Source: Paracoccus methylovorus | Lineage (GTDB): Bacteria > Pseudomonadota > Alphaproteobacteria > Rhodobacterales > Rhodobacteraceae | NCBI RefSeq assembly: GCF_016919705.1 | Contig: NZ_CP070369.1 | Coordinates: 372,001-436,000, forward strand | Length of the DNA: 64,000 nt | Direction: 5' to 3' | Shown: positions 9,687-39,842 of the stretch, in pieces | Position numbering within the stretch: the first letter of the stretch is position 1 | Layout: each line of letters opens with the position of its first letter | The notes under the pieces: model-generated | Told to the model about the DNA's origin: nothing | Database searches by the model: none | Seen by the model: only the letters and a program-made list of their open reading frames with translations | Made by a program: the position numbers and the translations under genes

Positions 9687-9690
9687 CAAA

Positions 9691-11351: not shown

Positions 11352-11409
11352 CGGCGGGCTCCGGCTGGGTATTCAGCGCGGCCGGCACCCGTGTCCGGCC
11401 GACATGGAC

Positions 11410-22224: not shown

Positions 22225-23880
22225 TTACACCGGCGCCCGCGCCAGCTCTGCTGCCTGCGTGCGCAGGGCGAATTTCTGGGTCTTGCCGGTCGAGGTCTTG
22301 GGCAATGGTCCGAAAACCACCCGCGACGGACATTTGTAGCCCGCAAGCCCGGTCCGGCAATGCGCGATCAGGCCGGCCTCGGTTTCCTCGCAGCCGTCGC
22401 GCAATTCCACGAAGGCGCAGGGGGTCTCGCCCCATTTCTCGCTGGGCATGGCGACCACCGCGCAAGCTGCAACCGCGGGATGGCGGTAAAGCTGTTCCTC
22501 GATCTCGATGGACGAGATGTTCTCGCCACCCGAGATGATGATGTCCTTGGAGCGGTCCTTGAGCTGGATATAGCCGTCGGGATGCATCACCGCCAGATCG
22601 CCGGAATGGAACCAGCCGCCGGCAAAAGCCGCCGCCGTGGCCTCGGGATTCTTCAGATAACCTTTCATCACCGCATTGCCGCGAAACATCACCTCGCCGA
22701 GTGTCTGGCCGTCGGCGGGCACGGGTTGCATGGTTTCCGGGTCCATCACCGCCAGATCGTCCAGCGACAGGTAGCGCACACCCTGCCGCGCCTTGCGCGC
22801 CGCCTGCTCGGGTGCGGGCAGCACGTCCCACGCGGGGTTCCATTCGTTGACCACGGCCGGGCCATAGGTTTCCGTCAGGCCGTAAAGATGGGTCACGCTG
22901 AAACCCGCATCGGCCATGGCACGCAGGACCGTTTCGGGTGGTGGCGCCGCAGCGGTGTTAAAGACCACCTGCTGGGGAAAGCTGCGTTTCTGTTCGTCCG
23001 GGGCGTTGAGCAGGGTGGACATGACAATGGGCGCTCCGCACAGATGCGTGATGCCGTGATCGGCGATGGCGTCGTAGATCGCGCCTGCACGAACCCAGCG
23101 CAGGCAGACCTGCGTGCCCGCCTGCACCGGCACGGCCCACGGGAAGCACCAGCCGTTGCAGTGAAACATCGGCAGCGTCCACAGATAGACCGGATGCTTG
23201 CCCAACCCGGCATGGATGACGTTGTTCAGGGCCATCAGGGCCGCGCCGCGATGGTGGCAAACGACACCCTTGGGGTTGCCCGTCGTGCCCGAGGTATAGT
23301 TCAGGGAAATCGCGTCCCATTCGTCGCCGGGCAGGGAGCCGGCAAATTCTGCGTCGCCCTCGGCCAGGAACTGTTCATAGTCCAGATCGCCGATGGGTTC
23401 TCCCTTGGGGTGGGGGGCATCGTCGGGATATTCGGCATCGTCAAAGTCGATCACCAGCGGACGGACCTTGGCCAGCGCCAGCGCTTCAGCGGCCATCGCC
23501 GAAAACTCGCGATCCACGATCAGTATACGGCTTTCCGCGTGGTCCAGCTGAAAGGCCACGGTTGCGGCGTCCGACCGGGTGTTGATCGAATGCAGCACCG
23601 CGCCCCCGGCCATCGGCACCGCGAAATGGGCGTGGATCATGGGCGGCGTGTTCGACAGGATAACCGAGACGGTATCGCCCCGGCCAATGCCCCGGCCAGC
23701 CAGTGCCGAGGCCAACCGGCGGCAATCGGACCAGAGCCGGGCATAGCTGTGGTGCTGGCGGCCATGGATCACCGCCGGGTGGTCGGGAGAGGTTCGCGCC
23801 GCCCGCTGCAGATAGGATATCGGCGTCATCGGCTGATGGTTGGCCGCAAGGCGGTCCAGTCCTTGGTCGTATTTGGTCAT
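22225..23880 (-). CDS. Acyl-CoA synthetase (AMP-forming)
   Basis: This 551-residue ligase activates a carboxylic acid to its CoA thioester through an acyl-adenylate. The P-loop-like motif LNYTSGTTGNPKGVVCHHRG is near 194-213, the adenylate motif LYGLTETYGP follows, and GGWFHSGDLAV plus the C-terminal KTSTGKTQKF lysine complete the set. It belongs to the medium-chain group that includes roseobacter MMPA-CoA ligase DmdB; substrate cannot be fixed. The start could be either of two adjacent ATGs (23880 or 23883) behind GAGGGGAGA. It is the last gene of an eleven-gene minus-strand run, 39 bp after the rhodanese gene. Confidence 0.88.
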   Translation of the reverse strand: MTKYDQGLDRLAANHQPMTPISYLQRAARTSPDHPAVIHGRQHHSYARLWSDCRRLASALAGRGIGRGDTVSVILSNTPPMIHAHFAVPMAGGAVLHSINTRSDAATVAFQLDHAESRILIVDREFSAMAAEALALAKVRPLVIDFDDAEYPDDAPHPKGEPIGDLDYEQFLAEGDAEFAGSLPGDEWDAISLNYTSGTTGNPKGVVCHHRGAALMALNNVIHAGLGKHPVYLWTLPMFHCNGWCFPWAVPVQAGTQVCLRWVRAGAIYDAIADHGITHLCGAPIVMSTLLNAPDEQKRSFPQQVVFNTAAAPPPETVLRAMADAGFSVTHLYGLTETYGPAVVNEWNPAWDVLPAPEQAARKARQGVRYLSLDDLAVMDPETMQPVPADGQTLGEVMFRGNAVMKGYLKNPEATAAAFAGGWFHSGDLAVMHPDGYIQLKDRSKDIIISGGENISSIEIEEQLYRHPAVAACAVVAMPSEKWGETPCAFVELRDGCEETEAGLIAHCRTGLAGYKCPSRVVFGPLPKTSTGKTQKFALRTQAAELARAPV

Positions 23881-23919
23881 CATTCTCCCCTCGTCCGCCC
23901 CGGCAATCGGGGGCGGTGC

Positions 23920-24312
23920 TTATCCTTTTGCCGCACGCTCGGCCACCGGCTGGCCGGCCTTGCGCCATTCCCCAAAGCCGCCGCGCAGAGACCGCGCGTC
24001 CAGCCCCATCTCTTGCGCCACCCTTGCCGCCAGCAACGAGCGCCAGCCCGAGGCGCAGTAGAACACATAAGTCTTGCCCTCGGCAAAGCGGGGTTTGTGA
24101 TAGGGGCTTTCGGGGTCGATCCAGAACTCCAGCATTCCGCGCGGGGCGTGAAAGGCACCAAGAATCATCCCTTCGCGCTCAAGCTCGCGCGGGTCGCGGA
24201 TATCGACCAGGACCACCTGAGGATCGTCCCGCATCGCGGCCGCTTCCTCGATCGTGACCGATTGCACCACCGCATCGGCCTCGTCCAGCATCTGCCTGTA
24301 GCCGACCGCCAT
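23920..24312 (-). CDS. Single-domain rhodanese-like protein
   Basis: This 130-residue protein has one rhodanese domain: VVLVDIRDPRELEREG at 33-48 and the active loop YCASGWRS at 85-92, with Cys86 as the persulfide-carrying residue. GGFGEWRKAG is the usual C-terminal end. It would transfer sulfane sulfur to cyanide, thiols or a partner. It lies two bases after the AhpD-like gene and three genes after a molybdoenzyme. The persulfide chemistry could serve maturation of that enzyme, but this is a guess; many catabolic operons carry such proteins without known reason. Confidence 0.85.
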   Translation of the reverse strand: MAVGYRQMLDEADAVVQSVTIEEAAAMRDDPQVVLVDIRDPRELEREGMILGAFHAPRGMLEFWIDPESPYHKPRFAEGKTYVFYCASGWRSLLAARVAQEMGLDARSLRGGFGEWRKAGQPVAERAAKG

Positions 24313-24314
24313 GA

Positions 24315-24884
24315 TCAGCGACCCATCGCGTAGAATTCGTCATTGGGCCGCATGCTGGATACATTGGCAAGGCGGTTCGACATGCCGAAGAAGGCGGCGA
24401 TGGCAGCGATGTCCCAGATATCCTCGTCGTCGAAACCATGGCTGCGCAGCGTCGCGAAGTCCTCGTCCCCAGCCTCGTGCGCGCGGGCCGAGACCTTCAT
24501 GGCGAAATCCAGCATCGCCTTTTGCCGGGGCGTGATGTCGGCCTTGCGGTAGTTGATCGCCACCTGATCGGCGATCAGCGGATTCTTGGCGCGGATGCGC
24601 AGGATCGCGCCATGGGCGATGACGCAATACTGGCATTGGTTCACGGTCGAGGTGGCGACGACGATCATCTCGCGCTCGGCCTTGGTCAGGTTGCCGGGGC
24701 GGTCCATCAGGGCATCGTGATAGGCGAAGAAGGCGCGGAATTCGTCCGGGCGATGCGCCAGCGTCAGGAACACGTTCGGGATGAAGCCCGATTTCTCCTG
24801 CACCGCCTCGATGCGGGTGCGGATATCCTCGGGCATGTCGGCGAGGCTGGGAACGGCAAAGCGGCTGACGGGGGCTTCGGTCAT
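24315..24884 (-). CDS. AhpD/CMD-like peroxidase-related protein
   Basis: This 189-residue helical protein belongs to the alkylhydroperoxidase D / carboxymuconolactone decarboxylase superfamily (peroxidase-related group). The redox motif is QCQYCVIAHG, with Cys84, Cys87 and His91. A long C-terminal helix pair follows. The ATG at 24884 overlaps the upstream molybdoenzyme stop as ATGA; the same frame runs open to 25379 inside the molybdoenzyme gene and that extension is not used. It probably reduces peroxides or acts as a thiol-disulfide carrier for a pathway enzyme. Confidence 0.85.
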   Translation of the reverse strand: MTEAPVSRFAVPSLADMPEDIRTRIEAVQEKSGFIPNVFLTLAHRPDEFRAFFAYHDALMDRPGNLTKAEREMIVVATSTVNQCQYCVIAHGAILRIRAKNPLIADQVAINYRKADITPRQKAMLDFAMKVSARAHEAGDEDFATLRSHGFDDEDIWDIAAIAAFFGMSNRLANVSSMRPNDEFYAMGR

Positions 24885-27196
24885 GGGGTATTCTCCAGGT
24901 CGGGCAGGATTTCTGCCAGTTGTGATTGATAGGTCCGCATCGGGTCGCGGTTGTCGCCGGCATAGGGCGCGACGCGGATCAGGCAGGTATGGGCGGAACA
25001 ACCCTGCCCAAAGGCCGAGGTGCCGATGTCCAGCGTCAGCACATTGGGGTTGCCCGAGATTTCCGGACCGTCCCCGACAGGCGTGAACCACGCCCCCGTT
25101 GGCAGCACGGCCACGCCGGGCGCGGTGTCGCTGCTGATGCAAGCCGAGGCCAAGCAGGCGCCCCGCGCGTTCCACAGCCGCACGGTCGCACCGTCTGCGA
25201 TGCCGCGCGCCTGTGCATCGGCGGGGTTCAGTCGCAATTGTTCGCGCCCGTGGCGCTTGTCGGCCATGCTGGCCGCACCCGTCTCCAACTGGCTGTGCAA
25301 CCGGCCCTGCGGCTGGTGCGAGATCAGGTGCAACTCGTCTCTTCCGGCCTTGCCCAGCCATTCGGCCGGCGGCAGCCACGCCGGATGCGGCAGGCAGTCG
25401 TCGTGTTCCAGTTGCGCCAGCGTCTTGCTGCCCAGCACGATCAACCCGCTTTCCGTATCCAGCGCGTTGCCCGCCGGGTCTTGCCGGAAACCGGCCAGAT
25501 AGACATGGTTGCGCTGCACCGGCACCGGGGCGTGGCCGCGTTCCCAGAACGTCTCGAACGCGGGCATCAGGAAGCCATGCGCGCGCAGGGCGTGCGTGCG
25601 GCTTTCATCGTAAAGATGCCGGATCCAGCCCATCTCGTCCCGGCCCTCGTTGAAGGCAGGGCCTACGCCCAGCCGTTGGGCCAGCGCGTCGAAGATGTCG
25701 AAATCCGAGCGCGACTGGCCCAGCGGCGCGATGGCCTGCCGCATGGCCAGGATCAGGTCGCAGCGCTTGTTGCCCGCCAGATCGTTGCGCTCGATCGAGG
25801 TCGAGGCCGGCAGCACGATATCGGCCCGCCGCGCAGTTGCGGTCCACATCGGGTCCTGCACGATGATCGTCTCGGGTCGTGTCCATGCCTTGGAAAGCCG
25901 GTTCAGGTCCTGATGATGGTGAAAGGGATTGCCGCCCGCCCAATAGACCAACCGCGTGTCGGGATAGTTCCGCGTCTCGCCCTGATAAGTAAAGGGTGTG
26001 CCGGGATTCAGCAGCATGTCGCTGATCCGTGCAACCGGGATGAAACTGTCGATGGGCTTGGCCCCCTGCGACATGCCCGGCGACTTGCCGACCGAGAAGG
26101 GCGCACCCACTCCGCCAAGCGAGCCGTAGCCATAGCCGACGCCACCGCCCGGCAGGCCGATCTGGCCCACTACGGCCGCCAGCCCCAGCGCAGCCCAGAA
26201 AGGCTGCTCGCCATGATGGGCACGTTGCAAGGCCCAACTGACGGTCAGCATACTGCGGCTGTCCACCAGCCGCCGCGCCAGAGCCCGGATCGCGTCGGTG
26301 GGCAGGCCCGTGATGGTCGAGGCCCACGCGGCATCCTTGCGCTGCCCGTCCGCATCGCCGCCCAGATAGGCCAGGAATTCCAAAGACCCGCTGGTGCAAC
26401 GGTGCAGGAAATCGGCGTCGTGCCGCCCGGCCGCCACGATTTCGCCCGCCAGTCCCAGCATCAGTGCCGCGTCGGTATTGGGTCGGATCGGCCACCACTC
26501 CGCGCCCACCCATTCCGGCAGGTCGTCGCGCAGCGGCGAGACATGGATCACCCGCACACCGCGTTCCGCGATCCGGCGCAGATAGCCCTCAAGATAATGC
26601 GCGCCGATGCCGCCGGCTTCGCTTTGTGCGGTGCGCGGCGACATGGCGCCAAAGACCACCAGCGTTTCCGTATTCTCGGCGATATCGTCCAGCGTATTGG
26701 CCTGCCCGCCGCAAGCGCGGTCGTCGCCCAGCACATGGCGCAGGATCACCGGACCGGCGGCGATGGAATAGGTATCGACATGGCCGGTATAGCCGCCGAC
26801 CAGATTCAGCGTCCGCTTCAGCAGCGAAGAGGCATGATGGAACCGCCCGCAGGACGTCCAGCCATAGCTGCCGGCAAAGATCGAGGCATTGCCGTGGGTG
26901 TCCGCCACGCGCGTGATCTCGTTGGCGACCAGATCCAGCGCCTCGTCCCAGGGGACGGCGACAAAACGCTCAGCCCCGCGACCGCTGCGATCGCTGTGTT
27001 CGCGCTTGGCCAGCCAACCCTCGCGGATCATGGGCCGCAGGACGCGACGTTCGGGCCGGGCCCATTCGGCGACGGAATGGATGATGGCCGAGGGTGCGGG
27101 GTCCTCGGCCAGCGGTTCGACACCCGTGATCCGGCCATCCTCCACCAGGATGGTATAGGCGCCCCAATGGCTGCAATGCGGGATGCGGCGGATCAT
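24881..27196 (-). CDS. Molybdopterin oxidoreductase, BisC/DMSO reductase family
   Basis: This 771-residue protein is a cytoplasmic member of the DMSO reductase superfamily closest to biotin sulfoxide reductase. FAGSYGWTSCGRFHHASSLL at 108-127 matches the BisC/TorA phrase around the molybdenum ligand, probably Ser115. No N-terminal iron-sulfur cysteine motif and no Tat signal are present: it starts MIRRIPHCSHWGAY, as BisC-type enzymes do. Further family blocks are YWAGGNPFHHHQDLNRL and QDPMWTATARRADIVLPAST. Relatives reduce S- or N-oxides. It is embedded in a catabolic operon with CoA transferases, a kinase and an aldolase, so it may act on the pathway substrate. A 12-bp gap separates it from the ThDP gene. 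Confidence 0.88.
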   Translation of the reverse strand: MIRRIPHCSHWGAYTILVEDGRITGVEPLAEDPAPSAIIHSVAEWARPERRVLRPMIREGWLAKREHSDRSGRGAERFVAVPWDEALDLVANEITRVADTHGNASIFAGSYGWTSCGRFHHASSLLKRTLNLVGGYTGHVDTYSIAAGPVILRHVLGDDRACGGQANTLDDIAENTETLVVFGAMSPRTAQSEAGGIGAHYLEGYLRRIAERGVRVIHVSPLRDDLPEWVGAEWWPIRPNTDAALMLGLAGEIVAAGRHDADFLHRCTSGSLEFLAYLGGDADGQRKDAAWASTITGLPTDAIRALARRLVDSRSMLTVSWALQRAHHGEQPFWAALGLAAVVGQIGLPGGGVGYGYGSLGGVGAPFSVGKSPGMSQGAKPIDSFIPVARISDMLLNPGTPFTYQGETRNYPDTRLVYWAGGNPFHHHQDLNRLSKAWTRPETIIVQDPMWTATARRADIVLPASTSIERNDLAGNKRCDLILAMRQAIAPLGQSRSDFDIFDALAQRLGVGPAFNEGRDEMGWIRHLYDESRTHALRAHGFLMPAFETFWERGHAPVPVQRNHVYLAGFRQDPAGNALDTESGLIVLGSKTLAQLEHDDCLPHPAWLPPAEWLGKAGRDELHLISHQPQGRLHSQLETGAASMADKRHGREQLRLNPADAQARGIADGATVRLWNARGACLASACISSDTAPGVAVLPTGAWFTPVGDGPEISGNPNVLTLDIGTSAFGQGCSAHTCLIRVAPYAGDNRDPMRTYQSQLAEILPDLENTP

Positions 27197-27208
27197 GGCT
27201 GGCCCCTT

Positions 27209-28753
27209 TTACAGCACGGCTTCGATCAGGAACGGCCCCTTGCGCGACATGGCGGAACGCAGCAGGTCGAAAAAGGCTTCCGCGGTATCGGCACGGGCGG
27301 CCTCGACCCCCATGCCATTCGCGATATGCACCCAGTCCAGCGCCGGATCGTCAAGGTCCAGCATTCGCCGGGCGTTTTCACCCGGGGCGCCCGCGCCGAC
27401 ATTCTTCAGCTCGCCATGCAGGATCTTGTAAAGACGATTGGCAAAGATGATGGTCACCACGTCCAGCCGCTCTCGCGCCTGCGTCCACAGGCCCTGCACG
27501 GTATACATGCCGCTGCCGTCGGCTTGCAGTCCGATCACTTTGCGGTCGGGGCAGGCCACGGCGGCACCGATGGCCATGGGGATACCCTCGCCGATGGCGC
27601 CACCGGTCAGTTGCAGGAAATCATGCGGCGCAGCGCCATGGGTCGAGCGGAAGAAATCCCGCCCCGAGCTTACGGATTCGTCGCAGACGATGGCGTTCTC
27701 GGGCATCAGATGCGCCAGCGCGATGGCGATGGCGTCAGGGGTCAGCGCGCCATTGGGCATGTCAGGGGCGCCGTGTTCCGTCAGCCGGGCGGCAGGAGCC
27801 ATGCCGGTTTCCTGCGCCAGCGCCGCGATGGCCGCGGGCAGGTCGTCGTCTGCGTCCGCCATGGCGATCACGCGGCAGCCCTCGGGCAGCATCAGCCCGG
27901 GTTTGCCGGGATAGGCGAAGAAACCGACCGGAACGCTTGCGCCGATCAGCAGGATCTGCTCGGTCCCGTCGAAATTCGCCAGCGCCTGATCGATGACATA
28001 GGCCACGCGATCCAGTGCCACCCGGCCCGCGCCGCGCTGCATCCGGGCATTGGCCTGCTGCGCCATGATGCGGGCGCCGGTCTTTTGTCCGATACGGTCC
28101 AGCATCTCGGCCTGTGGCGCGCGCAGGGCGGTGCCGGTGACAAGAATGGTGGTGCGCTTGCCATTGCGCAGCGCCTCGGCCGCCTCGCGGATGCGTGCGG
28201 GGTCGGGCGTGGCGGGCGAGGGCAGGGCCACGACAGCGGGAACGGCGGCCGAGGTTTCCGTCCATGCCGCATCGGCATGCAGGATCAGGGTCGAGATGCC
28301 GCCCGCGCCGGTCCGTGCGGCGGCGATCGCCTGCGCCGTGCGCTCTCCCACAGCATCGGCGGACTCGGTCCGGCCCACCCAATGCGACATGGGCCAAGCA
28401 AGGCTGTCGATGTCGCTGGTCAGGGGTGCGTCATATTGCAGGTGATAGGTCGCATGATCGCCGACGACGTTCACGATGGGCGAGCGCGCGCGCCGCGCGT
28501 TGTGCAGGTTCGCCAACCCGTTCGCCAGCCCCGGCCCCAGATGCAGCAGGGTGGCGGCGGGCTTGTCGGCCATGCGGGCATAGCCGTCGGCGGCGCCGGT
28601 CACCACGCCCTCGAACAGACCCAGCACGCAACGCATCCGTGGCTGACGGTCCAGTGCCGCGACGAAATGCATCTCGGACGTGCCGGGATTGGCAAAGCAG
28701 GTGTCGATGCCGTTCGCCAGCAGGGTTTCACACAAAAGATCGGCGCCGTTCAT
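27209..28753 (-). CDS. Thiamine diphosphate-dependent enzyme (benzoylformate decarboxylase/ALS-like)
   Basis: This 514-residue protein has the three-domain layout of acetolactate-synthase-like enzymes. The N-terminal pyrimidine-binding domain has NPGTSEMHFV and Glu48 in GLFEGVVTGAADGYAR, the proton-relay glutamate. The C-terminal pyrophosphate domain has QADGSGMYTVQGLWTQAR and IIFANRLYKIL, the GDG-N motif with an Ala variant at the first Gly. It most resembles benzoylformate decarboxylase-type members, which decarboxylate 2-oxo acids to aldehydes. The start at 28753 overlaps the kinase stop; an upstream frame to 29014 is antisense overlap and unused. Next to a 2-hydroxyacid dehydrogenase it could decarboxylate the resulting 2-oxo acid. 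Confidence 0.85.
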   Translation of the reverse strand: MNGADLLCETLLANGIDTCFANPGTSEMHFVAALDRQPRMRCVLGLFEGVVTGAADGYARMADKPAATLLHLGPGLANGLANLHNARRARSPIVNVVGDHATYHLQYDAPLTSDIDSLAWPMSHWVGRTESADAVGERTAQAIAAARTGAGGISTLILHADAAWTETSAAVPAVVALPSPATPDPARIREAAEALRNGKRTTILVTGTALRAPQAEMLDRIGQKTGARIMAQQANARMQRGAGRVALDRVAYVIDQALANFDGTEQILLIGASVPVGFFAYPGKPGLMLPEGCRVIAMADADDDLPAAIAALAQETGMAPAARLTEHGAPDMPNGALTPDAIAIALAHLMPENAIVCDESVSSGRDFFRSTHGAAPHDFLQLTGGAIGEGIPMAIGAAVACPDRKVIGLQADGSGMYTVQGLWTQARERLDVVTIIFANRLYKILHGELKNVGAGAPGENARRMLDLDDPALDWVHIANGMGVEAARADTAEAFFDLLRSAMSRKGPFLIEAVL

Positions 28754-30243: not shown

Positions 30244-30246
30244 GAT

Positions 30247-30936: not shown

Positions 30937-31979
30937 TTGCAGGGGTGGAGCGGTGGCCGGCCGTCGACGATCAGCGCGATGTCGTGGGCAAGCATGGTGG
31001 CGGCCTTGATCGCGGAATAGCGCGAGGCGCCGGCGATATGCGGCGAAAGCGTGACATTGGGCAGTTTCAGCAACGGCCAGTCGGCGGGCGGCGGCTCGGG
31101 TTCGAACGTATCCAGCGCCGCGCCCTTGAGCTGTCCCGAAACCAGCGCGTCATAAAGCGCCGCATAGTCCAGAACCTGCCCGCGCGTGGTGTTCACGATA
31201 TAGCCGCCCGGCTTCATCATCGCGATCCGCTCGCGCGAGATCATGCCCTTGGTTTCCGGCGTGACGCGGGGGTGCAGCGTCACCACGTCGGCGCGGGCCA
31301 TCAGGTCGTCCAGATCAGCCTTTTCGAAACCGGCGGCCTTTTCCTCGGCGGTCAGTTCCTTGAACGGGTCATAGATCAGGATGCGGCAGCCAAAGGGTTG
31401 CAGCAGCCGCGCGACCCTTGTGCCGATGTCGCCATAGCCGACGATGCCCACGGTCAGTTCGCAAAGCTCGGGGCCGGTATTGGCATAGTGATAGAACTCG
31501 CGCCCGAACTCGCCGCTGGCCACGGTCATGTGGCCGCGGATCAGGTTGCGGGTTTCGGCCAACAGCGAGGCCACGGTGAACTCTGCCACCGCCGAGGCAT
31601 TGCGGCCGGGCGTATTCACCACCGGGATGCCGCGTGCACGGGCCGCCGCCATTTCGATATTCACCGGCCCGCCGCGAGAGACCCCGATGGCCTTCAGCCC
31701 GGGCGCATGGTCCAGACTTTGGGCGGTGATCGGTGCCAGATGGGTGATCAGGATGTCCAGATCGCGCAGGAAGTCGAAATATTCCTCGGGCCGGCCGACG
31801 AATTCGCCGACGGGCAGGGTCGGGTCGTATTTGGTGGACTTCAGCCGCAGCGGCCAGTCGATCTCCATGCTGCGGATGTCGAGGTTGCGATCCGGCAGTT
31901 TCTCGCGCAGCGCAGTTTCAAAGAAACCGGGCTGCATGAAGCCGTCGCCGATAATACCGATGGTCAGGCTGTCCGTCAT
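30933..31979 (-). CDS. D-isomer-specific 2-hydroxyacid dehydrogenase
   Basis: This 348-residue NAD(P)-dependent dehydrogenase interconverts a 2-hydroxy acid and a 2-oxo acid. The Rossmann motif VGIVGYGDIGTRVARLL sits near 178-194. The catalytic triad is visible as Arg in VNTTRGQVLD, Glu in DTFEPEPP and His in SPHIAGASRYS. The N-terminal catalytic domain contains THLAPITAQSLDHAPGLKAI. It overlaps both its neighbours by ATGA, so it is tightly coupled with the CaiB-type CoA transferase and the aldolase. It could produce the 2-oxo acid used by the ThDP enzyme of the same operon. Confidence 0.88.
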   Translation of the reverse strand: MTDSLTIGIIGDGFMQPGFFETALREKLPDRNLDIRSMEIDWPLRLKSTKYDPTLPVGEFVGRPEEYFDFLRDLDILITHLAPITAQSLDHAPGLKAIGVSRGGPVNIEMAAARARGIPVVNTPGRNASAVAEFTVASLLAETRNLIRGHMTVASGEFGREFYHYANTGPELCELTVGIVGYGDIGTRVARLLQPFGCRILIYDPFKELTAEEKAAGFEKADLDDLMARADVVTLHPRVTPETKGMISRERIAMMKPGGYIVNTTRGQVLDYAALYDALVSGQLKGAALDTFEPEPPPADWPLLKLPNVTLSPHIAGASRYSAIKAATMLAHDIALIVDGRPPLHPCK

Positions 31980-33175: not shown

Positions 33176-33936
33176 GCGGTTGCCCCTTCGGAGATCATGG
33201 CCGCCAGGTCGCGGCGCCATTCGGCGGCGAAGGCGGGATAGGTTTCGGCAAGCTCGTCCAGGACCCGACCGCGCAGCAGCGACAGCGTGGCGGCATCGGG
33301 GGCGGGCGTCGCGGCGGGCGTCGCGGCATGCGCGAAGGCGAAGCCGGTCGCGGCGCGGATCTGTTCCAGATCATGACCGGGGTGGATGCTTTCCAGCGTG
33401 AAGCCCGGCCGCGTCTTGTCAAAGCTGAACAGCGCCTTGCTGGTCAGCAGCGCCACCGGCCCGCCGGGGCGATGGACGCCCGGCTCGCTGACCCCCGGGG
33501 CGCTGATGAAGTCGACCTTGTCCACAAAGACGCGGGGGGAGTGTTCTTCGCGGAACAAGATCACACGCGGCACGGTGAAATAAAGATAGGCCGAGCCGAA
33601 AGAGCCGGGCCAGCGCACCTTGCCCTGCGGATAGTCGCCCGCGCCGACAAGGTTCACATTGGCCTGTCCGTCGATCTGACCGCCGCCCAGAAAAAACGCA
33701 TCCAGCCGCCCCTGTCCGGCGCTGTCGAACAGCTCGGCCGAGCCATTGGTGAAGAAATTATGTTCGACCGAACCAAGGATCGACAGCCGCACCTGTTGCC
33801 GCCCTTCATCCAGCGCGCGCCGCAGCATCGCGCCTGCGGCCGGCATGGGCGACGAGGCGCCGACCGCGACATGGCGCACGCCGTCCAGCAAGCGGGCAAT
33901 GGTGCAGATCAGGATTTCGCGGGGCAGGGCAGTCAT
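33172..33936 (-). CDS. CoA-transferase beta subunit (family I)
   Basis: This 254-residue protein is the beta subunit of a two-component family I CoA transferase of the glutaconate/3-oxoadipate-like type. Blocks include VRHVAVGASSPMPAAGAMLR near the N-terminus, RLSILGSVEHNFFTNGSAEL, FFLGGGQIDGQANVNLVGAG and VDKVDFISAPG. SVEHN is where other members show the catalytic Ser-Glu-Asn; the Glu aligns with the CoA-binding glutamate. The start at 33936 overlaps the alpha subunit stop by ATGA. The last third is Ala-rich and less conserved. Its substrate is unknown. Confidence 0.82.
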   Translation of the reverse strand: MTALPREILICTIARLLDGVRHVAVGASSPMPAAGAMLRRALDEGRQQVRLSILGSVEHNFFTNGSAELFDSAGQGRLDAFFLGGGQIDGQANVNLVGAGDYPQGKVRWPGSFGSAYLYFTVPRVILFREEHSPRVFVDKVDFISAPGVSEPGVHRPGGPVALLTSKALFSFDKTRPGFTLESIHPGHDLEQIRAATGFAFAHAATPAATPAPDAATLSLLRGRVLDELAETYPAFAAEWRRDLAAMISEGATA

Positions 33937-34730
33937 GCCGACACCTCTTGGGCCATGTATTCGGCAAAGCCCTGCGGCGTACGGGCGGCGGCGGCATAGC
34001 GCATCAGTTCGGCCGTGTCGGTGGCATATTCGCCCCAAAGCCCATAGGGCCAGGCCCCGCGCGGCGCATGCGCCACGGCGGTGACGTAAAGCGCGGGCAG
34101 GGTGCCCGCTGCGGTGATCTCATCCGCCAGCAGGCTGCGATCCACGATCCGCTCGACCGTGACCAGTGTTTCGGGCGCGGCATAGGCCATGGCGGCAAGT
34201 TCGCGGCGGCGGCCGATCCAGACATTACCGTCGCGGTCGGCCATGGGGGCATGGAAGATTGCCACATCGGGGCGGATTGCCGGGATCAGCGCGATGGGAT
34301 CGCCGGGGCAGAGGGGATTGTCGATCACCCGCCAGTCGCTGCGATTGGCCAGCACATCCGAGCCGATCAGCCCGCGCATCGGCATGAAGGGCACGCCTTT
34401 TTGCGCCGCCATCAGCCCGGCATGGATCGCCGGGCAGGTTGCGTCGAGGATCTGGATGTCGCCTGCCCGCACCGCCTGATTGAAGCGGGGTGCGCCGCCG
34501 GCCTCTCCCAGCGAAACGGCGCTGGTTTCGACGCTGCGCACCAGCCGGGCACCGATCAGTTGATCGACCTGCAACCCCCCGGTCGGTACACAGACCAGGT
34601 GCAGATCGCCCGCGCCATGTTCGATCAGCGGCCGGGTCATCGCCATGGAAACACCGGCATAGTCCACCGGTAGCGCCAGCGACATGCCGGGCCGGATACG
34701 GCTGGCCAAGGCCCGTAAATCGTCTGGCAT
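33933..34730 (-). CDS. CoA-transferase alpha subunit (family I)
   Basis: This 265-residue protein is the alpha partner, first gene of the eleven-gene operon. It shows PVDYAGVSMAMTRPLIEHGA and DLHLVCVPTGGLQVDQLIGA near the N-terminus, MRGLIGSDVL in the middle and ERIVDRSLLADEI. The layout fits GctA-like subunits. The promoter region lies upstream towards 34954 and carries two palindromic candidate operators. The nearest one (34768-34784) includes TATAAT on the coding strand, so a repressor bound there would cover the -10 element. Confidence 0.83.
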   Translation of the reverse strand: MPDDLRALASRIRPGMSLALPVDYAGVSMAMTRPLIEHGAGDLHLVCVPTGGLQVDQLIGARLVRSVETSAVSLGEAGGAPRFNQAVRAGDIQILDATCPAIHAGLMAAQKGVPFMPMRGLIGSDVLANRSDWRVIDNPLCPGDPIALIPAIRPDVAIFHAPMADRDGNVWIGRRRELAAMAYAAPETLVTVERIVDRSLLADEITAAGTLPALYVTAVAHAPRGAWPYGLWGEYATDTAELMRYAAAARTPQGFAEYMAQEVSA

Positions 34731-34767
34731 GATGTTTCCCCCAACCCTTCGGCGCGGTCAGCACCGT

Positions 34768-34784
34768 GTTCCAAATTATAGAAC
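34768..34784. promoter_or_regulatory. Candidate IclR operator 1 (17-bp palindrome)
   Basis: GTTCCAAATTATAGAAC has arms GTTCC and AGAAC around a 7-bp AT-rich core. On the minus strand it contains TATAAT at 34775-34780, a plausible -10 for the CoA-transferase operon that starts at 34730. Confidence 0.6.
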
Positions 34785-34924
34785 ATCATTCTGAAAATCA
34801 TGATAGGCAGAGCCAAACTTGCAAGTCAATCCATTCCTTTCTGCCAGTTTTAACCGTTTTTGCGTTGCGGTGCAGATTATCTTGACAAGTGGGCCAGAGC
34901 ACCGAAAATGAAATACGGAATGAC

Positions 34925-34941
34925 GTTCTGTAATATAGAAC
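34925..34941. promoter_or_regulatory. Candidate IclR operator 2 (17-bp palindrome)
   Basis: GTTCTGTAATATAGAAC is a perfect GTTCT/AGAAC inverted repeat with the same arm spacing as operator 1, with which it shares 13 of 17 bases. It ends 13 bp before the ATPase start at 34955, partly next to its ribosome site. A TTGACA hexamer lies upstream at 34882-34887. Confidence 0.65.
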
Positions 34942-34954
34942 GCTGGAGGAGAGC

Positions 34955-36103
34955 ATGGCGCAGACATTGGCGCGGCGCGAGTTGCGCCTTGAAACGCCGG
35001 AAATACAAGCGGCTGGAACCATCCGCTCGCAAGAGTCGATCGGCTCGGGCATATCGATTCGCAACGTGGTCAAGAGATACGGCAACTTTGTTGCGGCCGA
35101 CCGCATCAGTCTGGACATCAAGCCGGGCGAATTCATTACGCTGCTTGGCCCGTCGGGCAGCGGCAAGACCACGCTGCTGAACCTGCTGGCGGGTTTCCAG
35201 GCTCTGGACGAGGGCCAGATTCTGGTCGATGGCGCGCCGATCCAGAACGTGCCCACGCATCGGCGCGGCTTTGGCATGGTGTTTCAAAGCTATGCGCTGT
35301 TTCCCAACATGACCGTGGCGCAGAACGTGGCCTTTCCCATGCGCATGGCCAAGATCGACCGCACGAACACCGATCGGCGCGTGGCGGAAACGCTTGAGAT
35401 GATGCGGCTGTCGGATCACGCCGGCAAGTTGCCCTCGCAGATGTCGGGCGGCCAGCAGCAGCGCGTCGCCATCGCCCGCGCCATCGTCATGCGCCCGCGC
35501 GTCGTCTTGATGGACGAGCCGCTGAGCGCGCTGGACCGCCGGTTGCGCGAATCGATCCAGATCGAGATCCGCGAGCTGCACCAGACCATCGGCAGCACCA
35601 TCCTGTTCGTCACCCACGACCAGTCCGAGGCGCTGACCATGTCCGACCGCATCGCGGTGATGGATGCCGGCCATATCGTGCAGATCGCCCCTCCCGCCGA
35701 GCTTTATCGTCGCCCACAAAGCCGGTTCGTCGCCTCGTTCGTCGGTGAAAGCAATCTGATCGACGCGCAGGTGATCGGCCGCAACGGCCGTATCCTGACG
35801 CTGCGCACACCCGCCGGCCATGTCTTCGAGGCGGAATCGCGCAACGGCATTCACAACGACAAGGCCACCGTGCTGGTTCGCCCCGAGCGGATCGCGCTGC
35901 ATGACGCGCCTGTGCCGGGCAGCATGTCCGCGACCGTGACTTCGGCGCTGTTTCTGGGCGAGGTGCTGCGGATCGAGGTGGTGCTGGATGACGGCCAGAC
36001 CCTGCTGATCCGCTGTCCCGACATCGCCGGGCGCGACCTACCCCCCGTCGGCGGGCAACTGCATATTGGCTGGGGCGCGGCCGACAGCTGGGTGCTGTCA
36101 TGA
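34955..36103 (+). CDS. ABC transporter ATP-binding protein (PotA-like, CoA-transferase locus)
   Basis: This 382-residue ATPase has Walker A GPSGSGKTT (about 64-72), Q-loop GMVFQSYALFPNMTV, signature MSGGQQQRV and Walker B VVLMDEPLSALD, then a C-terminal TOBE-like domain. An N-terminal stretch of some 30 residues before the ABC domain is longer than usual. It is the first gene of a transporter operon divergent from the CoA-transferase operon, with a good GGAGGAGA ribosome site. Its stop overlaps the fused permease start by ATGA. It should energise import of the substrate processed by the divergent operon. Confidence 0.92.
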   Translation: MAQTLARRELRLETPEIQAAGTIRSQESIGSGISIRNVVKRYGNFVAADRISLDIKPGEFITLLGPSGSGKTTLLNLLAGFQALDEGQILVDGAPIQNVPTHRRGFGMVFQSYALFPNMTVAQNVAFPMRMAKIDRTNTDRRVAETLEMMRLSDHAGKLPSQMSGGQQQRVAIARAIVMRPRVVLMDEPLSALDRRLRESIQIEIRELHQTIGSTILFVTHDQSEALTMSDRIAVMDAGHIVQIAPPAELYRRPQSRFVASFVGESNLIDAQVIGRNGRILTLRTPAGHVFEAESRNGIHNDKATVLVRPERIALHDAPVPGSMSATVTSALFLGEVLRIEVVLDDGQTLLIRCPDIAGRDLPPVGGQLHIGWGAADSWVLS

Positions 36104-37881
36104 CCGATGCAAGCCTGAGCTCGACCGCCCGTGCCGACTTGGCGCAGCGGCTGAAGAATCCGGCGCTGCTGCTTGTGCCGGCGGTGCTGTTCCTTTCGGT
36201 GATCTACCTGCTGCCGCTTATCGACCTGTTTCGGGTCAGCATGTCCGGTCCGACCTGGTCCACGCATTTCGAGCGGGTGTTCACGGTTCCGCTTTATTGG
36301 GAATCGCTGCTGCGCACCATGCAGATCGCCTTTACGGTGGCCTGTCTTTGCGTGCTGCTGGGCTATCCGACCGCGTTGCTGATCCATCGCACGCGCGGGA
36401 TCGTGCAAGTGCTGATCGCGACGGCGGTGATCCTGCCCTATTTCATCGCCATCCTGATCCGCACCTATGCGTGGATGGTGCTGCTGGGTCGCAACGGGCC
36501 GATCAACAAGCTGCTGCAAACATTGGGGCTGATCGACTCGCCCCTGGCACTGCTGTTCAACCGGGGGTCGGTGCTGCTGGGCATGACCGCGGTGCTGCTG
36601 CCGCTGATGGTGCTGAGCATTTACGCATCCGTCGCCCGGCTGGACCAGAGCTTGACGCGTGCCGCCTTGGCATCCGGCGCGGGGCCGCTGGCAGTGTTCT
36701 GGCGTGTGTTGCTGCCTCTGACGCTGCCCGGCATCGGCGCGGGGTTCCTGCTGGTCTTCGTGGCCGGACTGGGCTTTTTCATCACGCCGACGCTGCTGGG
36801 CGGGCCGGGCGACCAGATGTTCGCCATGCATATCACCCAGCAGGCCGATTCCATCACCGGCCAAGGCTTCCTGCAGGCACTGGCCGTGGTGCTGTTGGTG
36901 ATCACGCTGGTCGTGGTGGGCGTGGCGGGCCGGATCATGGGTTTCGAATTCATCTGGGGCGGCGGCAAGATGGGCGATGCACCGGCGAAACCCGTCGCGG
37001 CGCCCGCTGCCCGTGCCCAGCCGCCACGTCGCGGCATCGCCATGATGCTGGCCGATTTGCTGGGCTGGCCACTGTTGCGGCTGATGGGTCTGCTGCCCGC
37101 CGGCTGGGGGCGCTGGACGGTGCGGATCATGGGCGGCTTCGTGATTACCGCGCTGATCGTGCCGATTATCGTCGTCATGGTGATCTCGTTCAGCAAGGCC
37201 AGCTACCTGACCTTTCCGCCGCCCGACTGGTCGCTGCGCTGGTATGAGAAATTCTTTTCCGACAGCAACTGGATGACGGCCTTCTGGAACTCCCTGGGCA
37301 TTGCCACGCTGTCGGCGGTCATCTCGGTCAGCCTTGGCGCCACGGCGGCCATGGGCATCGTGCGCAGCAATATCCGCTACAAATCAGCGGTGATGCTGCT
37401 GCTGGTCAGCCCGATGATCGTGCCCCCGGTGGTGCTGGGCCTGTCGCTTTACGCGCTGTTTCTGAAACTGGGGCTGGTCGGCACCTATCTGGGCCTTGCC
37501 GCCGCCCATGCGATCGGCGGTATCCCCATCGTGGTGGTAATCGTCGCTGCCTCGTTGCAGGCGGTGGACCAGCGGCTGGAACAGGGGGCGGCCGTGCATG
37601 GCGCCTCGCCGCTGACCGTGTTCCGCACGGTGACGCTGCCCGCCATTGCGCCGGGATTGGCGGCGGCGGTATTTTTCGCCTTCCTGCACTCGTTCGACGA
37701 ACTGGTGCTGTCGCTGTTCCTGTCCAGTCCACGCATGAAGACACTGCCGCTGATGCTGTGGGCCGACATCAACTATCAGTTGAACCCGGTTCTGGCCGTC
37801 GTCTCGACGCTAGAAGTGCTGCTGGTCGTGGGTGGCATCATTCTGGCCCGCCCCGTGCTGACCCGTGGCAAAGCCGCGTGA
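36100..37881 (+). CDS. ABC transporter permease, fused PotB-PotC double domain
   Basis: This 593-residue membrane protein joins two permease domains that are normally separate. The first half (about 20-290) has EAA-loop features around RAALASGAGPLAVFWRVLLP and LGFFITPTLLGGPGDQMFAM, a PotB phrase. The linker at about 292-325 is rich in Ala, Pro and Arg (APAKPVAAPAARAQPPRR). The second half (about 340-590) has QGAAVHGASPLTVFRTVTLP and FAFLHSFDELVLSLFLSSPR, a PotC phrase. Roughly twelve membrane segments result. One polypeptide would therefore form the whole channel. The frame is continuous, so it is a true fusion rather than an error. Confidence 0.9.
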   Translation: MTDASLSSTARADLAQRLKNPALLLVPAVLFLSVIYLLPLIDLFRVSMSGPTWSTHFERVFTVPLYWESLLRTMQIAFTVACLCVLLGYPTALLIHRTRGIVQVLIATAVILPYFIAILIRTYAWMVLLGRNGPINKLLQTLGLIDSPLALLFNRGSVLLGMTAVLLPLMVLSIYASVARLDQSLTRAALASGAGPLAVFWRVLLPLTLPGIGAGFLLVFVAGLGFFITPTLLGGPGDQMFAMHITQQADSITGQGFLQALAVVLLVITLVVVGVAGRIMGFEFIWGGGKMGDAPAKPVAAPAARAQPPRRGIAMMLADLLGWPLLRLMGLLPAGWGRWTVRIMGGFVITALIVPIIVVMVISFSKASYLTFPPPDWSLRWYEKFFSDSNWMTAFWNSLGIATLSAVISVSLGATAAMGIVRSNIRYKSAVMLLLVSPMIVPPVVLGLSLYALFLKLGLVGTYLGLAAAHAIGGIPIVVVIVAASLQAVDQRLEQGAAVHGASPLTVFRTVTLPAIAPGLAAAVFFAFLHSFDELVLSLFLSSPRMKTLPLMLWADINYQLNPVLAVVSTLEVLLVVGGIILARPVLTRGKAA

Positions 37882-37911
37882 ACCAAAGAAAATCCAATGG
37901 AGGAGGATGAA

Positions 37912-38991
37912 ATGTTGCAAGTGAACAAGAAGGCAACCGGCATGGTCTCGGTGCTGGCTCTGGCCACGCTGCTGGCCGGCCCGGCGCTGGCCCAAGGCGA
38001 GGTGGTGATGCAGGACCCCGGCGGCGCTTATGGCGATGCGCTGCGCGAGGTGATGTATGCGCCCTTTGAAAAGGAAACCGGCATCGACGTGGTGACGGTG
38101 CAAGAGGCGCGTTCGGGCCCCCGCATCAAGGCGCAGGTCGAGGCCGGGAAGGCCGAATGGGACCTGACCTTCATCTTCGATCAGGAAACCAAGCTGCTGG
38201 GTGACTGTTGCCTGGCCGACATCGACTATTCCAAGCTGTCGCCCGAGGCGCAGAAGACGCTGGCGACGATGCCGGACAACCTCAAGCGTCCCAAGGGCGT
38301 GGCCTTGCAGGTGATCGGCGTTGGCATGGTCTATAACACCGACGTGTATTCCAGCGAGCAGCCGGAAAGTTGGGCCGATTTCTGGGACACCGAGAAATTC
38401 CCCGGCAAGCGTTGCCTGCCCGCGTGGCCGCGCTTTGTCATGGAGGCCGCGCTGATGGCCGATGGTGTGCCCAAGGACGAGCTTTACCCCGTCGACATGG
38501 AGCGCGCGCTGAAGAAGATCGCCGAGATCAAGCCGCATGTCTCGAAATGGTGGACGACCTCGGCACAGGCGCCGCAACTGCTGTTGGATGGCGAGGCGGA
38601 TATGTGCATGGCCTATACCGGCTCGTCCTCGATCCTTGCACTTGAGGGCGCACCGCTTGAGGTCGAATGGAATCAGGGCTTTGTCTATTACGACTTCTTC
38701 TCGATCCCGAAGGGCGCACCGAACTACGACAACGCGCTGAAGTTGCTGTCCTGGCGGCTGGATGCCGAGCGTGCAGCCCAGCTGACCTCGGTTTATCCCG
38801 TCGCGCTGCCCTCTCCGCTGGTCTATGAGGCGGCGGATGCGGAAATCAGCAAATACTGGGCAAACAATCCCGAGAACCTTGCCAAGGCCATCGCATGGAG
38901 CCCGGATTACTGGGGCGCCGCATCGGGTCAAGGCACCACCACGAACGAGGAATACGGGCAGGAACAGCTGAACGCGCTTCTGGCGAAATGA
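37912..38991 (+). CDS. ABC transporter substrate-binding protein (PotD-like)
   Basis: This 359-residue periplasmic protein begins with a classic Sec signal peptide (KATGMVSVLALATLLAGPALA, cleaved near residue 27). Fold blocks include EVVMQDPGGAYGDALREVMY, AEWDLTFIFDQETKLL and VGMVYNTDVYSSEQP. Start at 37912 follows GGAGGAGGATGAA; a start five codons earlier is possible. It is the third gene of the ABC operon. Unlike the creatinine-locus binding protein it has no twin arginine. The ligand should be the substrate of the divergent CoA-transferase/aldolase/kinase operon; I cannot name it. Confidence 0.9.
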   Translation: MLQVNKKATGMVSVLALATLLAGPALAQGEVVMQDPGGAYGDALREVMYAPFEKETGIDVVTVQEARSGPRIKAQVEAGKAEWDLTFIFDQETKLLGDCCLADIDYSKLSPEAQKTLATMPDNLKRPKGVALQVIGVGMVYNTDVYSSEQPESWADFWDTEKFPGKRCLPAWPRFVMEAALMADGVPKDELYPVDMERALKKIAEIKPHVSKWWTTSAQAPQLLLDGEADMCMAYTGSSSILALEGAPLEVEWNQGFVYYDFFSIPKGAPNYDNALKLLSWRLDAERAAQLTSVYPVALPSPLVYEAADAEISKYWANNPENLAKAIAWSPDYWGAASGQGTTTNEEYGQEQLNALLAK

Positions 38992-39086
38992 CGCCGGGGC
39001 CGACCTGTTCGGTACGGCCCCAAGCCATGTATAACAGTCGCGCGGGCCATTTTGGCCCGTGCCAGCAAGGGAAGACCAAGCCGGAC

Positions 39087-39842
39087 ATGGACAAGGCATT
39101 CATAAAGGGTTTGCGGCTGATCGAGGCGCTTGCGCTAAGCGACCAGCCGCGTGGCGTGACCGATCTTGCCAATGAGCTTGAGCTGACGAAAAGCAATGTG
39201 CATCGCCTGCTGGCCACCCTGATCTCGCAGGGTTACGTCCGGCAGGTGCCACCGCAAAGCCATTATGAGCTGACAACGCGCATCTGGGAACTGGGCAGCC
39301 ATGTGATCCGCCGGATGGACCTGACCCAGATCGCCCGCCCCGCCATGATCCGGCTGGCCGAACAGACCGGAGAAACGGTGCATCTGTCCGTACTGGACGG
39401 CAGCGAGGTGGTCTATCTCGACAAGATCGAAAGTGCGCATCACATTCGCGCCCATACCAGTGTCGGCTCGCGCGCCCCGGCTTATACGGTTGCGACCGGC
39501 AAGGCGATGCTTGCCCATATGCCCGACGATTACCTGGATCGTTTCGAAGGGCGGATGGTGCGCTATACCGACACCACACGGACAACACTGGCCGAACTGC
39601 GCGATGACATCCGCCTTGCGCGTGAACAGGGCTATGCCCTCGTCCCCGAGGGCGAATGGCGCGACGGTATCGCCGCCTGTGCCTGCGCGATCCTGAATCG
39701 CTCGGGCGAATTGGCTGGGTCCATCGGCATGTCCGGGCCCGACTCGCGCATCAAGCGCAAGCAGCTCAAGGAAATTGCGCCGCAGGTGGTGGAGGCTGCT
39801 CGCGCCATCTCGCTTGCGCTGGGTTGTGCGCCCCGGGGCTGA
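39087..39842 (+). CDS. IclR-family transcriptional regulator
   Basis: This 251-residue regulator has the IclR winged helix at about 5-60 (GLRLIEALALSDQPRGVTDL, then LTKSNVHRLLATLISQGYV) and the C-terminal effector domain (RAHTSVGSRAPAYTVATGKA and the ACACAILNRSGELAGSIGMS end). The start at 39087 has an AAGGGAAGA leader. It is the last gene of the transporter operon, 95 bp beyond the binding protein. Its likely operators are the two GTTCY-N7-AGAAC palindromes upstream of the transporter. The effector is probably a pathway intermediate. Confidence 0.9.
   Translation: MDKAFIKGLRLIEALALSDQPRGVTDLANELELTKSNVHRLLATLISQGYVRQVPPQSHYELTTRIWELGSHVIRRMDLTQIARPAMIRLAEQTGETVHLSVLDGSEVVYLDKIESAHHIRAHTSVGSRAPAYTVATGKAMLAHMPDDYLDRFEGRMVRYTDTTRTTLAELRDDIRLAREQGYALVPEGEWRDGIAACACAILNRSGELAGSIGMSGPDSRIKRKQLKEIAPQVVEAARAISLALGCAPRG

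Follow-up and report, generated by a model that had tools for sequence, protein, structure and literature searches.

An eleven-gene CoA, kinase, aldolase and molybdoenzyme cluster divergent from an ABC importer in Paracoccus methylovorus: a probable catabolic unit with a possibly undescribed pathway

Several described catabolic systems resemble, in part of their gene content, the locus examined here, which comprises an eleven-gene putative operon and a divergently oriented ATP-binding cassette (ABC) importer at positions 22225 to 39842 of a 64,000-nucleotide window of the Paracoccus methylovorus genome (NZ_CP070369.1, positions 372,001 to 436,000; the window is the whole stretch analysed, and all coordinates below refer to it). 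In Sinorhizobium, the loci for erythritol, adonitol and L-arabitol include a fucA that was reported to be dispensable, and they share with our locus an FGGY kinase and a FucA-type aldolase (PMC3599248). In S. meliloti Ak57 (L107) these two genes form an uninterrupted series with one for a 2-hydroxyacid dehydrogenase, next to ABC transport genes. The Ak57 locus differs in its sugar-type importer, GlpD-like enzyme and isomerases, and its annotated stretch contains no coenzyme A (CoA), thiamine diphosphate (ThDP) or molybdoenzyme gene. The GlpD-like EryB by which a rhizobial erythritol or pentitol locus would be recognized was not found among the operon genes.

A second point of comparison is the degradation of 3,3'-thiodipropionate and 3-mercaptopropionate by Variovorax paradoxus TBEA6, for which the main text of the report places a thiol dioxygenase, the CoA-transferase Act, a desulfinase and enoyl-CoA hydratases at neighbouring locus tags, along with IlvX, described as a putative acetolactate synthase, and an enzyme named as a semialdehyde dehydrogenase; a flavin adenine dinucleotide (FAD) enzyme was reported as a 2-hydroxy acid dehydrogenase, and deletion of IlvX left growth on thiodipropionate unchanged (PMC6370202). 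Judged by its gene descriptions, the likeness lies in the thiol dioxygenase and desulfinase, which occur beside a few relatives of our locus, and in the shared ThDP and aldehyde dehydrogenase types, so that a grouping of decarboxylase, dehydrogenase and sulfur genes has a precedent in TBEA6, where these occur together (PMC6370202). The TBEA6 cluster differs in that the word aldolase is absent from the main text, the stem molybdo- appears there once (for sulfite oxidation), and no kinase or class I CoA-transferase pair is seen in its descriptions (PMC6370202). The AibAB, IpdAB and glutaconate CoA-transferase systems share the two-subunit PF01144 make-up of the class I CoA-transferase-like pair in our locus, but their partner genes differ, and the Escherichia coli L-fuculose route uses the same aldolase family with conserved residues but a distant kinase (L-fuculokinase model 45.1 bits vs. 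a cutoff of 470.9). An earlier note, made from the sequence alone, had known of no described pathway with this set of genes; homologous neighbourhoods indeed are not scattered, and no paper on the gene set was found in the open-access literature searched, which leaves most subscription journals outside and in which one locus-tag query was partly guessed.

Overall, the eleven genes and the transporter form a real, conserved and probably locally regulated catabolic unit, as judged from gene content and comparison among genomes. The comparison used 36 loci from a scan of named genomes with kinase alignment; two of them with 25-26% identity (L044, L045) were excluded from all counts (n = 34). Since the kinase served to find these loci, its presence in 34/34 is by construction, and presence counts are lower bounds because several loci, L010, L011, L024, L027 and L031 among them, stop at contig edges. 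In the following, coatA and coatB denote the class I CoA-transferase-like subunits A and B, coat3 the class III CoA-transferase, and the trio the kinase, dehydrogenase and aldolase. All eleven minus-strand genes listed in the earlier note are present at their positions and in the families given to them:

33933 to 34730, minus strand: class I CoA-transferase-like subunit A (coatA; IpdA/AibA-like), PF01144 39.8 bits
33172 to 33936, minus strand: class I CoA-transferase-like subunit B (coatB; IpdB/AibB-like), PF01144 38.5 bits
31976 to 33175, minus strand: class III CoA-transferase (coat3), PF02515 413.3 bits, 30/34 loci
30933 to 31979, minus strand: D-2-hydroxyacid dehydrogenase, PF02826 190.4 bits, 33/34 loci
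30247 to 30936, minus strand: class II (FucA-type) aldolase, PRK08087 270.0 bits (cutoff 264), 34/34 loci
28750 to 30243, minus strand: FGGY kinase, PF00370/PF02782
27209 to 28753, minus strand: ThDP enzyme, probable 2-oxo-acid decarboxylase, NF005760 775.5 bits (cutoff 363)
24881 to 27196, minus strand: BisC/DMSO-reductase family molybdoenzyme, TIGR00509 1023.5 bits (cutoff 1017.55), 31/34 loci
24315 to 24884, minus strand: AhpD-like peroxidase-related protein with CxxC, TIGR01926 228.0 bits (cutoff 81.8), PF02627, 27/34 loci
23920 to 24312, minus strand: single-domain rhodanese, PF00581 64.7 bits, 25/34 loci
22225 to 23883, minus strand: acyl-CoA synthetase (PRK08162 family), NF006020 900.9 bits (cutoff 677), 18/34 loci
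34955 to 36103, plus strand: ABC importer ATPase, PotA/PhnT2-like, about 359 bits each
36100 to 37881, plus strand: fused two-domain ABC permease, two BPD_transp_1 stretches
37897 to 38991, plus strand: solute-binding protein, 3rpw 619.8 bits
about 39027 to 39842, plus strand: IclR-family regulator, PF01614 147.5 bits, 32/34 loci

The tight packing described between 34730 and 22225 was recovered, adjacent genes either sharing 4 bp or being separated by no more than 36 bp, as were the divergent importer with its fused permease and the IclR gene. By open reading frame (ORF) coordinates, the spacing from coatA to the acyl-CoA synthetase is -4, -4, -4, -4, +3, -4, +12, -4, +2 and +36 bp (minus, overlap; plus, gap); a gene caller favoured later starts for three genes (30924, 34685 and 24291), with which some gaps become longer. 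The ThDP gene was corrected to 27209-28753, setting aside a longer TTG ORF, and the AhpD-like gene to 24315-24884, while the IclR start is placed near 39027 because no family match of the longer ORF starts before residue 57. Subfamily models of NCBIfam were passed by the molybdoenzyme, aldolase, synthetase and AhpD-like protein, and every listed NCBIfam cutoff was missed by the kinase, dehydrogenase, class III transferase and class I pair; at this level the gene families are clear and the functions, for the most part, are not.

Gene order is widely conserved among the relatives. Counted as ordered pairs within 2.6 kb in the 34 loci, coatA-coatB occurs in 32, coatB-coat3 in 30, coat3-dehydrogenase in 29, dehydrogenase-aldolase in 33, aldolase-kinase in 34, kinase-ThDP in 30, ThDP-molybdoenzyme in 29, molybdoenzyme-AhpD in 27, AhpD-rhodanese in 25, rhodanese-synthetase in 18, and ATPase-coatA in 30. 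Because this order recurs in about 30/34 kinase-found genomes, the clustering exceeds chance. Pairwise protein distances correlate among thirteen genes with r of 0.38-0.92, the values being mostly lowest for the AhpD-like gene; these figures are uncorrected for kinship, and host relatedness by itself would yield part of the correlation. The hosts include Paracoccus (Rhodobacterales), Mesorhizobium (Hyphomicrobiales) and Rhizobacter (Burkholderiales), and the kinase is found on 11 plasmid records, with the whole set on plasmid 1 of P. denitrificans PD1222 (PDEN_RS22860 to 22930). The kinase is uncommon, occurring at E 1e-40 in 8/198 genomes of the family (three close, our own included, and five at 35-40%), and the binding protein was found at E 1e-100 in one of 385 alphaproteobacteria, namely our own genome; coatB relatives are common (70/385 genomes of the class). 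Partial or dispersed relatives were also seen. Sulfitobacter THAF37 carries a shortened kinase relative with an IS6 transposase on plasmid d (L055, 9228-11074) and CoA genes plus a molybdoenzyme on plasmid b, and a Haematobacter plasmid (L108, 10001-12268) has a 70% molybdoenzyme relative near IclR, malate synthase G and glycolate oxidase genes, the rest of the set not being found in its 22-kb stretch.

The gap between coatA and the importer ATPase contains a palindrome, GTTCYRNNNNNYRGAAC, in two copies:

34768 to 34784, strand not assigned: palindrome copy 1, coatA side, GTTCYRNNNNNYRGAAC, putative operator
34925 to 34941, strand not assigned: palindrome copy 2, transporter side, GTTCYRNNNNNYRGAAC, putative operator

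These are the two occurrences in the 64-kb window, compared with 0.01 expected from dinucleotide shuffles. Among the 30 relatives with divergent arrangement, 29 have two copies and one has a single copy, with the nearest palindrome starting 13-35 bp from the ATPase start. In total, 65 sites were counted in the window and the 34 loci, of which 61 lie within the divergent gap (59 in the 30 relatives, two in the window), whereas mononucleotide shuffles of the loci gave an expectation of 0.0. Of the four sites outside the gap, one precedes the tripartite ATP-independent periplasmic (TRAP) transporter genes of L031, another the ATPase gene of L041, and L029 and L032 each have one close to iclR; in loci other than these 34, one site lies between TRAP and IclR genes in L054 and two precede coatA in L109. 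No site was present in L051, L088 or L150, nor, within the 34, in L039 or L040. Genome-wide the bare pattern is uninformative, since our own genome (4,381,421 bases) has 6 distinct sites, two of them in the gap, vs. 13 for the backwards control; two of the other four genomic sites share the 4-A/T-in-5 core seen in many operator sites. The paired palindrome in the gap is new here, and the IclR regulator of the locus probably binds both copies. The earlier suggestion that the locus is one unit is borne out to the extent that conserved order and a shared putative operator support a single unit of control.

The sugar-directed part of the locus would consist of the kinase and the aldolase, and the cleavage proposed for them earlier is supported by their families and by kept catalytic residues. 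Members of the L-fuculose-1-phosphate aldolase family split a ketose 1-phosphate into dihydroxyacetone phosphate (DHAP) and an aldehyde. The best solved chains for the aldolase are L-fuculose-1-phosphate aldolases, and E79, H98, H100, Y119, H161 and Y214, which we take to be catalytic, are invariant in 36/36 sequences. The protein meets the L-fuculose-phosphate aldolase subfamily cutoff (PRK08087, 270.0 vs. 264) and falls below the TIGR01086 equivalog cutoff (249.9 vs. 400.25), and is therefore described as like FucA without being assigned to FucA; the kinase would supply the 1-phosphate. Other assignments were tried and rejected, that of the aldolase as MtnB, the methylthioribulose-1-phosphate dehydratase of methionine salvage (65.8 bits vs. 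TIGR03328 cutoff 137.05), and that of the kinase as a known FGGY kinase (xylulokinase, autoinducer-2, glycerol, glucono- or L-fuculokinase; best 112.9 vs. 380.25).

For the acid-directed part, a dehydrogenase and a ThDP enzyme are followed by CoA chemistry. R266, E295 and H314 of the dehydrogenase are invariant in 34/34 sequences, and L034, the only locus without the dehydrogenase in place, has a 58% relative nearby. The nearest solved chains of the ThDP enzyme are benzoylformate decarboxylases, and its E48 and H71 are invariant in 32/32, so that the decarboxylation of a 2-oxo acid suggested in the earlier note gains support from kept catalytic residues; the enzyme is below the benzoylformate decarboxylase equivalog cutoff (NF005485, 207.9 vs. 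493) and misses the biosynthetic acetolactate synthase model TIGR00118 (114.5 vs. 538.35). An aldehyde dehydrogenase sharing 55% identity or more with the L034 protein is present in 11/34 loci, and in 8 of these the locus stops within its gene, on the far side of iclR; the count depends on the threshold (13 loci by clustering, 16 by tblastn, 11 at 55% identity). In Diaphorobacter L051 the aldehyde dehydrogenase (58%) and ThDP decarboxylase genes adjoin, and our own genome has a 66% relative on another contig, where it neighbours lepA and a gene for a DDE-type transposase, with no palindrome in the 20-kb stretch around it. An FAD-linked GlcD-like oxidase occurs in 18/34 loci, as a loose family with 27-39% identity to the L034 query.

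CoA activation, likewise part of the earlier reading, finds support in the class III CoA-transferase, in which D170, presumably the nucleophilic Asp, is invariant in 34/34. The notion of two kinds of CoA transferase stands for this enzyme and is doubtful for the class I pair, which may not transfer CoA. The two-subunit PF01144 relatives GctAB, IpdAB and AibAB match it at 32.6 to 78.4 bits; we take the solved relatives of coatA and coatB to be those named IpdA/AibA and IpdB/AibB. In coatB an Ile or Val stands opposite the AibB cysteine that we number Cys56 (with the GS anchor set by eye, as the HMMER alignment is weak there), E59 is kept in only 24/37, and E69 is invariant but lies at an LFD motif. 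A transferase label may be wrong, because the pair is nearer to the IpdAB, AibAB and glutaconate type and an invariant Glu was not seen where the nucleophile would be expected in this comparison. In L091, genes for two crotonases, an aldehyde dehydrogenase and a Succ_CoA_lig/ATP-grasp protein accompany relatives of coatA-coatB-coat3, neighbours which suggest that this triad is used in several acid pathways. Convergent with the operon are two further genes:

21193 to 22188, plus strand: AcuI-type acrylyl-CoA reductase, TIGR02823 413.7 bits (cutoff 297.25), 11/34 loci
20435 to 21196, plus strand: GntR-family regulator beside acuI, PF00392/PF07729, 10/34 loci

The AcuI-type protein meets the subfamily model TIGR02823 and is 4.5 bits short of the NF051456 equivalog cutoff (435.5 vs. 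440); in L088 an AcuI gene follows coatA-coatB-molybdoenzyme-AhpD.

The importer had been called polyamine-type, a label that holds for its family and says nothing of the ligand. Against solved structures, the binding protein matches 3rpw, which we take to be a protein from R. palustris, at 619.8 bits, followed by 4i1d (186.9), mannopine (139.5), GABA-sensor (133.8), MotA (119.1), 4eq7 (named for polyamine, 118.8) and agropine (114.9) binding proteins, with PotD only at 57.2 bits, behind the other solved binders. The portion of a survey of R. palustris binding proteins drawn on here gives no ligand for 3rpw (PMC3223731), and the entry name was not found in the papers listed. In L031, L039 and L040, the operon has TRAP genes beside it in place of an ABC set of this type, which would fit an acid substrate.

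The nearest solved chains of the molybdoenzyme are dimethyl sulfoxide (DMSO) reductases, and Y111, W113 and S144, which we take to be catalytic, are invariant in 34/34; the enzyme may reduce an S- or N-oxide. This hint of the earlier note holds, and it leans to sulfur, as sulfur genes lie beside a few relatives. Both Cys of the AhpD-like protein are kept in 30/30, and Cys86 of the rhodanese in 26/26. Thiol dioxygenase genes of the cysteine dioxygenase (CDO) type and desulfinase genes were searched for in our own genome, in the genomes of 27/34 kinase loci (all but L014, L016, L018, L022, L027, L031 and L032), and in two plasmid records. A CDO-type gene is present in 4/28 genomes; in three (L040, L041, L034) it is part of the locus or no more than about 4 kb away, and there it co-occurs with a crotonase and a further class III transferase, and in the fourth, that of L036, it is about 1 Mb from the cluster if contig numbering is as assumed. 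In Diaphorobacter L051, such a gene is about 5 kb from CoA genes. A 3-sulfinopropanoyl-CoA desulfinase was found in 1/28 genomes, that of Rhizobacter, where it adjoins the cluster. Both plasmid records have one as well, separated from CoA or molybdoenzyme genes by 6 kb in one case and about 38 kb in the other; the three proteins exceed the NF042439 cutoff of 600 (629.8, 659.3 and 635.3). In Hoeflea L039, a methionine-gamma-lyase-like gene and an AceE-like E1 gene follow the trio. A few relatives thus carry a CDO-type, desulfinase or methionine-gamma-lyase-like gene, so a sulfur-containing acid is favoured, but weakly and short of proof, since our own genome has no match to the first two.

The analysis establishes which genes are present, that their order and the palindromes are conserved, that catalytic residues are retained, and that sulfur genes lie beside a few relatives; from this we infer the substrates of all steps, their order, the binding of IclR and, in this strain, the involvement of sulfur. 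Our tentative proposal, which we hold at somewhat less than even confidence, is that the divergon imports and degrades one compound in which a small acid is attached to a moiety resembling a sugar or polyol; the acid most likely contains sulfur, as a thioether or sulfoxide. The compound would be imported by the ABC transporter (TRAP genes taking this place in some relatives), and an S-oxide would be reduced by the BisC-family enzyme. The sugar part would then be phosphorylated by the FGGY kinase and cleaved by the FucA-type aldolase into DHAP and an aldehyde, while the 2-hydroxyacid dehydrogenase would form a 2-oxo acid, to be decarboxylated by the ThDP enzyme. The resulting aldehyde could be oxidized by an aldehyde dehydrogenase, here the 66% relative on the other contig, and a CoA ester made by the class III CoA-transferase or the synthetase. 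Propionyl-CoA might be reached through the IpdAB/AibAB-like pair and AcuI or, in a few relatives, a thiol-dioxygenase/desulfinase route; AcuI, CDO/desulfinase, and the lyase-like gene with E1 may represent exchangeable endings of this kind. The divergon would be controlled by its own IclR regulator at the two palindromic operators. The logic of kinase-aldolase cleavage combined with decarboxylation and CoA activation is supported by families and residues.

A narrower version, which we consider quite unlikely, is a pathway devoted to conjugates of the sugar-S-acid kind, for example S-ribosylhomocysteine, the 2-hydroxy analogue of this compound, or sulfoxides of either, in which sulfoxide reduction would be followed by removal of the sugar part as DHAP through kinase and aldolase, and a C4 sulfur acid would be decarboxylated and brought to propionyl-CoA by the exchangeable endings. 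The missing sugar isomerase and the few relatives with sulfur genes count against it, and no paper on S-ribosylhomocysteine as a carbon source was found, judging by titles.

A number of observations weigh against the proposed degradation of a single, sulfur-containing conjugate. The P. methylovorus genome has neither a CDO match (E 1e-10) nor a desulfinase match (E 1e-100), the two genes by which a 3-mercaptopropionate pathway would be recognized, and CDO was not found in 24/28 genomes or the desulfinase in 27/28. The sample is also biased, as the CDO query came from L040, a cluster-adjacent case that is not independent for this reason, the desulfinase query came from L051, and the plasmid records were chosen for CoA genes; without L040, the CDO gene is cluster-adjacent in 2/3 genomes. 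The name CDO depends on a Pfam score of 23.1 bits vs. a cutoff of 23 and the annotation of one record (Diaphorobacter), NCBIfam having given no family, and the Hoeflea lyase-like and E1-like matches are under curated cutoffs (541.8/666, 514.6/549.7; 169.6/859.9). A desulfinase-query match at E 1e-10 in L049, which has distant kinase and dehydrogenase relatives, could be explained by acyl-CoA dehydrogenases generally. In addition, the model passed by the ThDP enzyme is named acetolactate synthase large subunit (NF005760, PRK07586), and no aldose-ketose isomerase is present among the families of the cluster. Seven distant kinase loci (L046-L049, L105-L107) have sugar- or polyol-type transport genes, as annotated, and no CDO match.

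The same divergon and chemistry could act on a sulfur-free sugar or polyol acid, with the molybdoenzyme and rhodanese serving otherwise and the dioxygenase and desulfinase neighbours belonging to a separate pathway, a reading that we regard as doubtful though a serious contender. Distant trios are found next to transport genes of the sugar or polyol type in several genomes, among them Shinella and S. meliloti Ak57 (in P. seriniphilus, next to a different ABC set and sulfatase genes), and the TRAP genes of L031, L039 and L040, a galactonate-dehydratase-like gene near L034 that is below its cutoff, and the lack of CDO and desulfinase matches in our own genome all agree with it; yet a BisC-family gene is kept in 31/34, the CDO gene is cluster-adjacent in three of the four genomes that have one, subject to the query bias, and it is accompanied by the second class III transferase and crotonase in the same three loci. 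It is unlikely, though conceivable, that two pathways are under the same operator and act on separate compounds of common origin, the kinase, aldolase and dehydrogenase serving a sugar and the CoA genes, ThDP enzyme and molybdoenzyme an acid. The modules do occur separately: Hoeflea L039 has the trio and no matches to ThDP enzyme (E 1e-60), coatB (1e-40) or class III transferase (1e-90), and L054 and L088 have coatA-coatB-(coat3), molybdoenzyme and AhpD genes and no trio within the stretch. Because parts occur apart in this way, the earlier statement that the genes must serve one process is too strong. Against two routes, acid genes stand on both sides of the trio in one run, and the coat3-dehydrogenase and kinase-ThDP junctions recur in 29/34 and 30/34.

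It is improbable that the substrate is an N-oxide, or an opine- or Amadori-type conjugate in which the sugar is linked through nitrogen, and that the molybdoenzyme reduces an N-O bond: although the binding protein is related to mannopine and agropine binders and the BisC family includes enzymes for both S- and N-oxides, the core families include no hydrolase for amines or amides, sulfur genes adjoin a few relatives, and Tyr111 is kept in 34/34, a residue whose equivalent, to our knowledge, trimethylamine N-oxide reductases lack. Equally improbable is a known pathway under other annotation, for example a Sinorhizobium-type polyol locus, to which the kinase, dehydrogenase and aldolase are 32, 51 and 50% identical in S. 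meliloti Ak57, or a variant of sulfoglycolysis, which also includes a kinase and an aldolase leading to DHAP; the operon has no GlpD-like enzyme, and the literature searches returned nothing on this gene set. The earlier interpretation survives in part, as to the unit, cleavage, decarboxylation and CoA activation, and gives way as to the class I transferase, the polyamine ligand and the necessity of one process.

Other features of the window were noted in passing. An MttB-like protein (3828-5249, plus strand) belongs to the trimethylamine-corrinoid methyltransferase family (TIGR02369, 285.1 bits vs. cutoff 525), and a second ABC importer set lies near the cluster (8601-12504, minus strand), with a PotA-like ATPase (8601-9686) and a PotD-like binding protein (11410-12504), both below cutoffs. 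A multicopper-oxidase-like ORF of 325 amino acids (18814-19791, minus strand) matches CueO in separate stretches and is perhaps a shortened copy. An ORF of 941 amino acids (41313-44138, minus strand) matches nothing in Pfam or NCBIfam at E 0.001 and adjoins a transglutaminase-core protein (39917-41164).

The presence of the complete set on plasmid 1 of P. denitrificans PD1222 makes the proposed pathway testable in that strain, and with the palindromes and the binding protein, inducer and ligand become directly measurable. Conserved order and control across Rhodobacterales, Hyphomicrobiales and a genus of Burkholderiales suggest that the known bacterial nutrients do not yet include a natural compound to which a dozen genes are devoted.

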